A DNA stretch of 64,000 nt from Capsulimonas corticalis. Lineage in GTDB: Bacteria > Armatimonadota > Armatimonadia > Armatimonadales > Capsulimonadaceae. The stretch spans positions 3,720,001 to 3,784,000 of the forward strand of contig NZ_AP025739.1 of assembly GCF_003574315.2 (NCBI RefSeq). Direction: 5' to 3'. The translations under genes were made by a program, and so were the position numbers. The notes below the pieces were generated by a model. It was not told the DNA's origin. It saw only the letters and a program-made list of their open reading frames with translations, and searched no databases. Within the stretch, counting starts at the first letter, position 1, and every line of letters begins with the position of its first letter. This document shows positions 4,301-11,767 of this stretch, piece by piece.

Positions 4301-5560
4301 CTACACAAACGCCAGATGCGGGAACGCGCCCGACAGCACTGCGCTGGATTTGCATCCCAGCCAGTTGTCCAGAAGCGTGGCGTAGACGCTGCGGAAGTCG
4401 GTGTGGAAGCGGACATCGCCGTCGTCGAGGTCGCCCAGGTTCGGCGCTTCGCCGTAGAGGCCGCCTTTGACGCCCGCGCCGGCGAGGAACATGACGCTGC
4501 CGGCGCCGTGGTCCGTGCCGGCGGAGCCGTTTTCCTTGGCGCGGCGGCCGAATTCGGAGAAGGTCATCACGATCACGTCGTTCGCGCGGCCTTGCAGGGC
4601 GAGGTCGTCGAAGAAGGCGCTCAAACCGTCGGCGAGCTGGCCGAGAAGCTGGCCGTGCTGGTAGGGCTGATTGGCGTGCGTATCGAAGCCGCCGATGCTG
4701 TGATAGTAAACGCGTGTGCCCAGCCCGCCCGAGATCAGTTTGGCGATCGTTTGCAGGCCCTCGGCGAAGCCGTTGTAGCGTGGGTACTTGGCGGCGTCGC
4801 CGGCTTTCGTATCGTAGTGATCGAGCGCCTGCTGCAATTGGAGGGAGCTGGAGTACGCTTCGCTGCCGACATTGCGGATGAACTCGGCGTTGCCGCCCGC
4901 GACCGTACCTTCGGCGTAGAGCGCCTTGAGCGCGGAAAGCTGGGCGTCGCGGTCGCCGGCGTCCACGCGGAAACCGTAATCGCGGCCATTGCCGACCGCC
5001 GAGACCGGCGCGTGCTCGGAGAACAGCGTCAGCGGCAGGGAAGAACCGAGGGTGACGCCGGACAGCGGGTTAGACTTCAAGTGGCCGTCGTCGTCAAAGT
5101 AGCGCGCGAGCCAGCCGACGCGGTCTTTGATGTCGAGATCGGGATTGCCAAGCTGCCAGATGTCCATGGACTGGAAGTGGCTGCGGTTGGGATTGGGGTA
5201 GCCGACGCTGTTGACGACCGCCAGATGTCCCTTCTCATAGAGATTTCCGAACGCTTTGAGGCGCGGGTGCAGCCCCAGGTTGCCGTCGATCTTCACCACA
5301 TCGCTTGCCTTGATCCCAATATTCGGACGCAGCTTCGCATAGTTCGGATCGGTGTAGGGGATGACGGTGTTCAGCCCGTCGTTGCCGCCGGACATCTCGA
5401 TCACCACCAGGATCTTGCCGGCCGGGATCGCGGGAACGCCCGGGATCGCCGCGCCCATGGGGTCGGCGGCGGCCGCCTGCATCAAAAAATGCGGCATCGC
5501 GAGACCCAGCGATACAAAGGCCAGGCCGTTATGGATAAATTCGCGTCGCGTCGTCGCCAT
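4301..5560 (-). CDS. DUF1501 family exported protein
   Basis: A 419-residue DUF1501 protein, a sulfatase/alkaline-phosphatase-like exported family of unknown substrate. The N-terminus TTRREFIHNGLAFVSLGL is a Tat-type signal followed by a hydrophobic stretch. The family signature SGGNDGLNTVIPY appears at about residue 58, with later SIGGFDTHANQ and TFSEFGRRAKENGSAGTDHG stretches typical of the fold. It sits directly downstream of a DUF1800 gene on the same strand, and this pair is common in Planctomycetes, Armatimonadota and Proteobacteria. The two products probably work together outside the cytoplasm; their reaction is not known. Confidence 0.9.
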   Translation of the reverse strand: MATTRREFIHNGLAFVSLGLAMPHFLMQAAAADPMGAAIPGVPAIPAGKILVVIEMSGGNDGLNTVIPYTDPNYAKLRPNIGIKASDVVKIDGNLGLHPRLKAFGNLYEKGHLAVVNSVGYPNPNRSHFQSMDIWQLGNPDLDIKDRVGWLARYFDDDGHLKSNPLSGVTLGSSLPLTLFSEHAPVSAVGNGRDYGFRVDAGDRDAQLSALKALYAEGTVAGGNAEFIRNVGSEAYSSSLQLQQALDHYDTKAGDAAKYPRYNGFAEGLQTIAKLISGGLGTRVYYHSIGGFDTHANQPYQHGQLLGQLADGLSAFFDDLALQGRANDVIVMTFSEFGRRAKENGSAGTDHGAGSVMFLAGAGVKGGLYGEAPNLGDLDDGDVRFHTDFRSVYATLLDNWLGCKSSAVLSGAFPHLAFV

Positions 5561-7083: not shown

Positions 7084-7221
7084 GACCAGCAACCTCCGGT
7101 CTTAATTGACGTGTCTGTTCGGTAATATGTTCTACAGCGTCCGAAAACGCTTGATTGTTCCATTATAAGGCATAAGTCGCAAACAGGCAATAACTAATGA
7201 TTGCAGGCGTAAGCTCGCGAA

Positions 7222-7327
7222 GAAACGCGGATGTAAAATCCACGTCTGGGAAGCGAAACGCTAACTGTCCGTGCCGGACGGACAATTAGCCGAAGGCTTC
7301 CCAGGCGTGGATTTTACATTCGCGTTC
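7222..7327. repeat. Long imperfect hairpin (about 106 bases)
   Basis: Arms at 7222-7254 and 7296-7327 are near-perfect inverted copies centred on ATGTAAAATCCACG. An inner pair, CTAACTGTCCG and CGGACGGACAATTAG, extends the fold almost to the tip. No T-run follows, so it is not an ordinary terminator. It lies between the DUF1800 start and the promoter of the flavoprotein operon. Confidence 0.8.
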
Positions 7328-7380
7328 CTCTTGCCTTGTGAACTGCGCCTTGGACTGAACCTGCGCCCTGGGAGAGAGAC

Positions 7381-7410
7381 TTGACAATCGCGCTCCGTCA
7401 CGTCTATAAT
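7381..7410 (+). promoter_or_regulatory. Strong sigma-70 promoter of flavoprotein operon
   Basis: TTGACA at 7381-7386 and TATAAT at 7405-7410 with an 18-base spacer. Both boxes are consensus. Transcription should start near 7417, leaving a leader of about 120 bases before the ATG at 7538. Confidence 0.85.
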
Positions 7411-7504
7411 TTGTTAAATTCACTAGTAAGGCTAGTGATAAAATAGTGAAATGTGCAGCCGACTAGCAAACTGGAGGCCGCCGCGTATACGCGGCGGCTT
7501 TTTT
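7411..7504 (+). promoter_or_regulatory. Structured 5' leader with candidate pseudoknot and attenuator
   Basis: After the promoter, TTCACTA (7419-7425) can pair with TAGTGAA (7444-7450). GCTAGT (7431-7436), inside that loop, can pair with ACTAGC (7462-7467), giving an H-type pseudoknot. A competing hairpin CACTAG-TAAGG-CTAGTG is also possible. The leader ends in a full intrinsic terminator, all upstream of the flavoprotein start. This layout is that of a riboswitch or attenuator. It matches no class I can name. Confidence 0.6.
7477..7504 (+). terminator. Intrinsic terminator inside the 5' leader
   Basis: A perfect 22-base palindrome (GCCGCCGCGTA and its complement) followed by TTTTTT. It lies about 33 bases before the flavoprotein ATG, so it must be conditionally bypassed for the operon to be expressed. 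Confidence 0.85.
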
Positions 7505-7537
7505 GATTGTTATAAGAACTGAGAAAGGCGTGAGAAG

Positions 7538-9214
7538 ATGAGTGAAGTGGGGCGAGTGAATGGACAGCGCAGTCCGTCGTCGGAGCCGATCCGGGCAGAC
7601 GATCCGATCAAGTTCGATACCGATGTGCTGGTGCTGGGCGGCGGGCCGGCGGGCGCCTGGGCGGCGTACGGAGCGGCGAGCCGCGGGGCGCGCGTGACGC
7701 TGGTGGACAAGGGATATCTGGGAAGCAGCGGGGCGACGGCGCCGGGCGGCAATAACGTGCTTTATGTCGAGCCGGATCAGAAGCTGCGTGATGAAGCCGT
7801 TGCGTCGCGCATGGCGCAGGGCGGGTATCTGTCCGAGGCGCGCTGGATCCATCGGATTCTGGACAATGTCTACGAGCAGCTAAAGTTGGTCGAACAGTGG
7901 GGATATCCGTTTCCCAAAGATGAGTATGGGAACTCCCAGCGCAGTCACTTGCAGGGGCCGGAGTATATGAAGCTGATGCGTAACGTCGTCAAAAAGGCGG
8001 GCGTGCGCATTCTGGATCAATCGCCGGCGCTGGAGCTGCTGGTAGACTCGCACGGAGTCGGCGGCGCGCGCGGCGTGTCGAGGCTGGAAGGGCTCCCATG
8101 GGAGATCCGGGCCAGTGCGGTCGTGATCGCGACCGGCGGATGCGCGTTTCTCGCCGGCGGTCTGGGCTGCAATGTGCTGACGGGCGAGGGACTGTTGATG
8201 GCCGCCGAGCTTGGCGCGGAGCTGTCCGGAATGGAGTTTGCGCGTCATTATGCGCCGAGCGCCGGCGGCGGAACGGTGACGCGCGGGCGGACGCTGGGCT
8301 GGGGGACATTCAGCCGCGAAGATGGAACGGTGGTGGACCGACGGGGTGATCCCGACGCCTTAGCGCGCGCCCTGCTGGACGGGCCGGTCTACGCCGTGCT
8401 GGACAAGGCCGACACGCCGGAGAAGCGCCGGATCCTGCGCGGCGCCCACGCGATCTTCTTCCTGCCGCTGGACCGGGCGGGCTTCGATCCATTCACGCAG
8501 CGCTTCCCGGTGACTTTGCGCTATGAAGGCACCGTGCGCGGCGTCGGCGGGATTCGCATTACCGGCGACGACTGCTCGACGACGATCCCCGGCCTTTACG
8601 CGGCCGGCGACGCCGCCTCGCGCCAGCTGGTCACGGGCGCAAGCTCGGGAGGAGGCGCCTTTAACGCCGCCTGGGCGCTGTCTTCGGGCGGCTGGTCCGG
8701 CGAAGCGGCCGCGCAGTATGCGCTGTCGCTGGGGCGTAAGCCTCACGAGCGCACGCTTCAGGCGGCCGGACGCGCCGGTGTCCAGAGCGCCTCGACGGGA
8801 TCGGCGAGCATTGAAACGGCGGCCGTGATCAAAGCCGTGCAAAGCGAGGTTTTCCCCTTGGAAATCAACTATTTCCGGAGTGTCCCGGTCCTCGAACAAT
8901 CGCTCCGCCGGCTCAATGCGCTGTGGCCGGCGGTGAACGGCGCCCCGGGAACGAGCGCCGATGAACTGCTGCGTTCGCGCGAGGCGGCGGCGATGGTTCA
9001 GACGGCGCGCTGGTCGCACACCGCCGCGCTCGCCCGAACGGAGACGCGGGGGATGCATACGTTTGCGGAGTATCCTGACACCGATCCCCGCCAGCAGCGC
9101 CGCCTGACCACGGCCGGCGTCGAAACGATCCGCGTGCGCCCGGAAGGTCTCGCGCCGGCGTCCGCGCACCCCGAACCGCATCCGATCTCCTGGCGAAAGG
9201 CGGTGGCCGCATGA
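7538..9214 (+). CDS. FAD-dependent oxidoreductase, fumarate reductase/AprA-like flavoprotein
   Basis: A 558-residue flavoprotein of the fumarate reductase/succinate dehydrogenase/adenylylsulfate reductase superfamily. The dinucleotide-binding motif VLGGGPAGAWAA is at about residues 31-42. SSGATAPGGNNV follows, and the C-terminal FAD contact region is GLYAAGDAASRQLVTGASSGGGAF (about 355-378). The stop overlaps the start of a two-cluster ferredoxin, so the pair probably forms an electron-transfer enzyme. Similar flavoprotein-ferredoxin pairs occur beside sulfonate transporters in other bacteria, but no transporter is present here, so the substrate is open. Expression is likely gated by the attenuator upstream. 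Confidence 0.8.
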   Translation: MSEVGRVNGQRSPSSEPIRADDPIKFDTDVLVLGGGPAGAWAAYGAASRGARVTLVDKGYLGSSGATAPGGNNVLYVEPDQKLRDEAVASRMAQGGYLSEARWIHRILDNVYEQLKLVEQWGYPFPKDEYGNSQRSHLQGPEYMKLMRNVVKKAGVRILDQSPALELLVDSHGVGGARGVSRLEGLPWEIRASAVVIATGGCAFLAGGLGCNVLTGEGLLMAAELGAELSGMEFARHYAPSAGGGTVTRGRTLGWGTFSREDGTVVDRRGDPDALARALLDGPVYAVLDKADTPEKRRILRGAHAIFFLPLDRAGFDPFTQRFPVTLRYEGTVRGVGGIRITGDDCSTTIPGLYAAGDAASRQLVTGASSGGGAFNAAWALSSGGWSGEAAAQYALSLGRKPHERTLQAAGRAGVQSASTGSASIETAAVIKAVQSEVFPLEINYFRSVPVLEQSLRRLNALWPAVNGAPGTSADELLRSREAAAMVQTARWSHTAALARTETRGMHTFAEYPDTDPRQQRRLTTAGVETIRVRPEGLAPASAHPEPHPISWRKAVAA

Positions 9215-9552
9215 TCGAGTTAGTAAGCGTTTCACGCTGTATCGAATGCAATCTCTGCGTGAAAGTCTGCCCCACGCATGTCTTCGACGAAGTCGAGGGC
9301 GCCGCGCCGGTGATCGCCCGGCAAAGCGACTGCCAGACCTGCTTCATCTGCGAAGCCTACTGCCCCGTCGACGCGCTTTACGTCGCGCCCTTCGCCGACC
9401 GGTCTGTCCCGGTCAGCGAGGACGATCTCGAAGAATCCGGAGCGCTTGGCGGCTGGCGGGCCACCATCGGCTGGGGCCCCGGCCGCACGCCCATCGCGAA
9501 GACCGACTCCACGCCTCTGCTGGAGAGCATCAGTCCGAGGCGGAGAGGATAA
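9211..9552 (+). CDS. 2x[4Fe-4S] ferredoxin-type protein
   Basis: A 113-residue protein with two cysteine clusters, CIECNLCVKVCP (residues about 9-20) and CQTCFICEAYCP (about 41-52), each the CxxCxxCxxxCP pattern for a [4Fe-4S] cluster. The C-terminal 50 residues have no recognised motif. ATG overlaps the flavoprotein stop as ATGA, which implies coupled translation and a 1:1 complex. It most likely carries electrons to or from the flavoprotein, as AprB does for AprA; the physiological donor is unknown. Confidence 0.9.
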   Translation: MIELVSVSRCIECNLCVKVCPTHVFDEVEGAAPVIARQSDCQTCFICEAYCPVDALYVAPFADRSVPVSEDDLEESGALGGWRATIGWGPGRTPIAKTDSTPLLESISPRRRG

Positions 9553-11738: not shown

Positions 11739-11767
11739 TTGACACTGTCGTATTTCTCGCGTATAAT
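11739..11767 (+). promoter_or_regulatory. Consensus promoter of the MerR gene, leaderless
   Basis: TTGACA 11739-11744, 17-base spacer, TATAAT 11762-11767. The ATG at 11774 lies only six bases after the -10 box, so the mRNA probably begins at or next to the start codon. Around the -35, GAAATA-x3-CGACA and TGTCG-TATTTC form a split inverted repeat that could be the autoregulatory operator. Confidence 0.8.

Follow-up and report, generated by a model that had tools for sequence, protein, structure and literature searches.

Several regulatory systems described in bacteria resemble the leader that we report here. In the RAT sequences bound by antiterminators of the BglG/LicT type, a protein stabilises a short hairpin that contains an asymmetric internal loop and overlaps a terminator. 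In ANTAR-domain systems (EutV, NasR and AmiR), an antiterminator hairpin lies at the 5' base of the terminator, and the targets are dual hairpins with hexaloops that carry A1 and G4 (PMC3369931). Leaders of sulfur genes also contain SAM-II and S-box riboswitches, and an attenuator called the ABC-leader was described in bacilli 5' of an operon for alkanesulfonate transport (Naville and Gautheret 2010, PMC2965389). The small proteins OscA and YezD occur widely and are tied to sulfur starvation. The oscA gene of Pseudomonas corrugata has been reported in the sulfur starvation response and forms one unit with a gene for sulfate binding (PMC3596284, citing Viti 2009); the published work on OscA deals with sulfur starvation and with resistance to chromate (PMC3596284). 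A literature search on OscA/YezD found no molecular mechanism.

The genome of Capsulimonas corticalis is a single 7.6-Mb contig. We analysed a stretch of 64,000 nucleotides from it, here called the window, in which the leader of a flavoprotein gene has the following features.

7381..7410, + strand: sigma-70 promoter, TTGACA-18-TATAAT, matching the consensus at 12/12 positions and found at the same position in paralogue leaders
7419..7450, + strand: accessory 5' stem-loop or stem-loops (P1), inverted repeats TTCACTA/TAGTGAA or TCACTAG/CTAGTGA
7458..7478, + strand: predicted antiterminator hairpin (P2), GCC-GA-CTAG-CAAA-CTGG-A-GGC, with covariation in 47 sequences
7477..7504, + strand: intrinsic terminator, stem 7477-7498 and U-tract 7499-7504, its 5' arm overlapping P2
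7538..9214, + strand: controlled gene, an aprA/fumarate-reductase-like flavoprotein (Pfam FAD_binding_2 5e-24, Succ_DH_flav_C 7e-6)
9211..9552, + strand: 4Fe-4S ferredoxin gene (Pfam Fer4 9.7e-9), overlapping the stop of the flavoprotein gene

The initial annotation had correctly recognised the consensus promoter and a perfect GC-rich terminator, which consists of an 11-bp palindrome followed by six T, all 5' of the ATG at 7538. The flavoprotein-ferredoxin pair that it had named was confirmed by Pfam, but the element described below is not specific to that operon and marks a sulfur-assimilation regulon. Just 5' of the promoter and between divergent genes lies a 52-nt inverted repeat (7221-7329, 83%, 5-nt loop) that is possibly a mobile element or a bidirectional terminator. 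A second perfect 12/12 sigma-70 promoter is found at 11739-11767, just 5' of a MerR-type regulator gene (11774).

This genome encodes three paralogues of the flavoprotein (L005, L007 and L008), and the nearest relative encodes two. All four flavoprotein genes here, and one of the two in the nearest relative, share a leader in which the promoter is followed by a short variable stretch, then by GCCGACTNG-NNNN-CNRGAGGCC or a close variant that runs into a terminator of unrelated sequence. By searching with a pattern we found this leader 5' of unrelated genes as well, and models of P2 were built from the paralogue leaders together with those from the pattern search. P2 is 21 nt long, with an outer helix of 3 bp, a GA/A internal loop, an inner helix of 4 bp and a tetraloop that is present in all 47 sequences. 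These align without gaps to the consensus RCY - SA - CNNG - NCNA - CNNG - A - RGY, in which 99.1% of cells keep the pairing and unpaired positions of the internal loop and the tetraloop are conserved. Double changes were counted in 52 cells, compared with 10.4 +/- 5.4 after shuffling, and the covariation score was 0.527 compared with 0.223, a signal that was lost when the register was slid by one column; related sequences inflate such shuffle tests, but paired changes are found repeatedly among unrelated leaders and in two phyla. A held-out model made without the window and without the paralogue leaders scored the P2 of the window at 22.9 bits, the next best of the 128,000 positions in the 64 kb reaching 11.5 bits. 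The covariation among homologous leaders that the initial annotation had proposed to look for is thus present before both orthologous and paralogous operons. It lies in P2, which that annotation had overlooked. Nothing else is conserved in the leaders outside P2. Matches to P2 in coding sequence (L125-L130, L204) and in 23S rRNA (L032, L036, L043) were discarded as chance.

In almost all of the leaders that we inspected, the 5' arm of the terminator starts within P2, in its 3' arm; therefore P2 and the terminator are mutually exclusive. At a few sites (L082, L083, L120, L131), P2 has no obvious terminator. When the growing transcript of the window was simulated, P2 stayed folded up to 7494 and the terminator won at 7498, where its 3' arm is complete. 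Folding of the leader was stronger than that of shuffled sequences (z -4.1) because of the terminator, without which z was only -1.35. Sharing of bases and mutual exclusion, both seen here, are what define an attenuator with an intrinsic terminator and an antiterminator, and as modelled this arrangement is the anatomy of an antiterminator. Very probably, P2 is a real and conserved antiterminator of a sulfur regulon, and the earlier proposal that termination here would be conditional agrees with the covariation of P2 and its overlap with the terminator.

The upstream repeats behave differently from P2. The perfect inverted repeats TTCACTA (7419-7425) with TAGTGAA (7444-7450) and TCACTAG (7420-7426) with CTAGTGA (7432-7438) are present as the initial annotation had noted, and so are the halves of its H-type pseudoknot, GCTAGT at 7431 and ACTAGC at 7462. 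However, these pairings and the pseudoknot are shared only with the paralogue leader L007 and are missing from the other paralogues and most homologous leaders, which speaks against the alternative pairings as a conserved switch and against a conserved function of the pseudoknot. In L121, P2 starts a few nucleotides past the predicted transcription start, leaving no space for P1. P1 is not conserved and possibly dispensable. Perfect inverted repeats just past a start site resemble an operator, and the terminator might simply end a short leader RNA constitutively while a repressor at the TTCACTA repeats controls the gene at the DNA level. We regard this as highly improbable; P2 covaries and its overlap with the terminator is conserved, whereas the repeats show no conservation across P2 leaders.

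P2 recurs across two phyla, Armatimonadota and Bacillota. This genome has about 16 P2 leaders, the sister species has about nine, and most genomes of the order have one to four. Among 398 Bacillota genomes, 47 had a match at E <= 0.005, where about two are expected by chance. Most copies precede sulfur genes (ssu, sat, cysK, metY, cysH and the aprA-like family), although most target identities come from translations read by eye and not from profile matches. The genes behind P2 include ssuD, ssuE, ssuA-like and ssuC-like genes, with metY (L111, L123), cysK (L121) and TauE-like plus cysH-like genes (L131) in Armatimonadota. The Bacillota targets comprise ATP sulfurylase (L181, L192, L193), cysK and an ssuC-like gene (L184, L185), an aprA-like gene (L186) and sulfonate ABC genes (L182, L187; L175-L177, L179), and some copies there stand before genes that have no evident part in sulfur metabolism (phage-like, nicotinate phosphoribosyltransferase-like and nitrogenase-like). 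We rejected the idea that P2 marks the flavoprotein alone, as most copies stand before other sulfur genes and an Azoarcus genome has a flavoprotein homologue without P2. Two P2 hairpins in tandem within 30-400 nt were observed at L117 and L221 (G231), L227 (G212) and L216 (G004).

Neither the leader nor P2 matched Rfam at gathering or permissive thresholds, in agreement with the earlier statement that no known riboswitch class is recognisable. The SAM-II covariance model did not match the leader even at E 10, and the pseudoknot is not conserved. At the Bacillota loci, the only Rfam riboswitch or leader families found were S-box and cobalamin elements, separate from P2 and lying near some copies: an S-box SAM riboswitch lies ~100 nt 5' of P2 in a sulfonate-transporter leader (L187, G388:C4), and cobalamin riboswitches lie near P2 in L197, L200 and L207. 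P2 thus differs from the SAM-II and S-box elements with which it shares sulfur-gene leaders, and it marks out, in Armatimonadota and in part of the Bacillota, a sulfur regulon whose P2 sites use neither an S-box nor a T-box. Like P2, the ABC-leader is an attenuator 5' of a sulfonate operon in Bacilli, and, judged by description, the two are possibly the same element (PMC2965389). In contrast to the present case, the passages of that paper describing the ABC-leader name no factor and mention neither Armatimonadota nor other sulfur genes (PMC2965389).

In many loci of both phyla, an open reading frame of roughly 55 residues belonging to Pfam DUF2292 (PF10055) lies directly 5' of P2. It matches the NCBIfam model 'sulfur starvation response protein OscA' below the equivalog cut-off, and YezD is a member of the same family, so the small protein beside P2 and the OscA/YezD proteins share one Pfam family. 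The single DUF2292 gene of this genome, at G000 554387-554494, is directly 5' of another P2 leader. In antitermination systems, a regulator gene often has its own attenuator behind it. Among 291 Armatimonadota genomes, DUF2292 is present in 19 of the 23 with a strong P2 and in 6 of the 268 others (Fisher 5e-21, not corrected for kinship). Outside the order of this genome, eight genomes have both, two have P2 only and five have DUF2292 only; three of these five contain weak family matches, and one (G081) has a P2 on closer search. P2 follows within about 250 nt 3' of the gene at 16 of 25 DUF2292 loci in Armatimonadota, and in Bacillota a DUF2292 gene adjoins P2 upstream in 9 of 28 loci. DUF2292 was not found in G011 and G230 despite their P2 leaders, nor in G001, which is 69% complete.

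As an independent test, we searched plasmids for DUF2292 by protein, a set that had not been used to build the hypothesis. A yezD gene on a Niallia (Bacillaceae) plasmid, found by protein only, has a P2 13 nt past its stop codon (E 3e-6). Among genomes outside those that defined the association, P2 lies close behind DUF2292 on this plasmid and in G081 but not at two Novosphingobium loci from the plasmid search, which had no P2. A search of phages returned no DUF2292, and no solved structure of the family was found.

Since P2 usually stands beside DUF2292/OscA/YezD, this protein is the leading candidate for the switch reading P2. The chance that DUF2292 is the trans-acting factor on P2 is slightly better than even, and it could instead be a co-regulated sulfur-starvation protein and not a regulator. 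The initial annotation had left open a riboswitch or an attenuator. The layout is that of an attenuator, and the genetic association with DUF2292 makes a protein-dependent antiterminator likelier than a classic riboswitch.

We therefore moderately favour a model, drawn from sequence comparison, in which the leader would belong to a new family of sulfur-responsive antitermination leaders, with P2 competing against the terminator and DUF2292 as the most likely factor. RNA polymerase would first make P2, a small hairpin with its GA/A internal loop. If nothing held it, the 3' arm (AGGC) would be captured by the terminator that follows and transcription would stop. If a factor, most likely DUF2292, bound and stabilised P2, the base of the terminator would stay incomplete and the downstream sulfonate and sulfur genes would be read. 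On this view DUF2292 would bind P2, its binding would produce read-through, and sulfur starvation is the condition in which read-through would be expected. Such a model would give OscA/YezD, of which oscA is also linked to chromate resistance, a concrete and testable mechanism, the binding of a defined 21-nt RNA hairpin. P2 can also be used as a probe for unknown genes of sulfur economy.

The main rival is direct metabolite sensing, in which P2 is an aptamer, or part of one, for a sulfur metabolite and serves as a mini-riboswitch with the same competition against the terminator. The wide distribution of P2, the conservation of unpaired bases in both of its loops, and the P2 leaders of G011 and G230, where DUF2292 was not detected, fit such an aptamer. 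We nevertheless consider it unlikely, given that P2 is only 21 nt long with one small internal loop, that the rest of the leader is not conserved, and that P2 and a single family of small proteins are tightly linked physically. The P2-like hairpins that are repeated in a 3' region, described below, also resemble binding sites.

Other proteins could bind P2 in place of DUF2292. An ANTAR-domain response regulator would act as it does in the antitermination of nas, eut and ami; in L120 (G080:C335), the genes behind a P2 leader are that of an ANTAR response regulator and then an ssuE-like gene, and among 61 genomes searched an ANTAR gene is present in all 15 that have P2. It is also present in 32 of the 46 without a strong P2. 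Moreover, P2 is a single hairpin with a tetraloop in place of A1/G4 hexaloops, its P1 companion is not conserved, and this genome's two ANTAR genes adjoin GAF-type sensor-like and ammonium-transporter-like genes, not sulfur genes. An ANTAR factor is quite improbable and was rejected, the RNA features being absent, although one ANTAR gene itself stands behind P2. A BglG/LicT/GlcT-type antiterminator would follow the same logic of a hairpin overlapping a terminator as in RAT, and a Paenibacillus open reading frame just 5' of a P2-ssu operon reads like a PRD/GlcT-type antiterminator. P2 differs from RAT in sequence and loops, however, and CAT_RBD (PF03123) was found in 0 of 61 Armatimonadota genomes, while the positive control detected it in B. 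subtilis and E. coli. This absence refutes a BglG-type protein as the general factor and leaves that reading scarcely conceivable. DUF2292 is the candidate that we retain.

Some proteins encoded at P2 sites have unusual contents of sulfur amino acids. DUF1559 pilin-like proteins linked to P2 (whose genes include L055 and L074) have a median Cys+Met content of 1.2%, compared with 3.7% in unlinked ones (18 vs 5, P 0.001, the unlinked controls being few). Two of the linked proteins have no Cys or Met in about 270 residues, and one linked pilin, L058, is an exception. From their composition, the P2-linked pilins are possibly sulfur-sparing.

On the minus strand of L101 (G000:C1 2766000-2776000), at about 5061-5550, a gene encodes a protein of about 160 residues with 46% Met+Cys, and G004 has a counterpart with 45% (L102, 3674-4159, minus strand). 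Their composition suggests that they are probably a sulfur store. Directly 3' of this gene, in both genomes, are 2-4 P2-like hairpins. We propose tentatively, with rather less than an even chance, that DUF2292/OscA/YezD is a new family of RNA-binding antitermination proteins of about 55 residues that would control a cross-phylum sulfur-starvation regulon through P2, including replacement pilins free of or poor in Cys/Met, and that the 3' hairpins of the storage-like gene would be decoys titrating the protein at sulfur plenty. In G004, a DUF2292 gene lies a few hundred nucleotides from the Met+Cys-rich gene, in convergent orientation.
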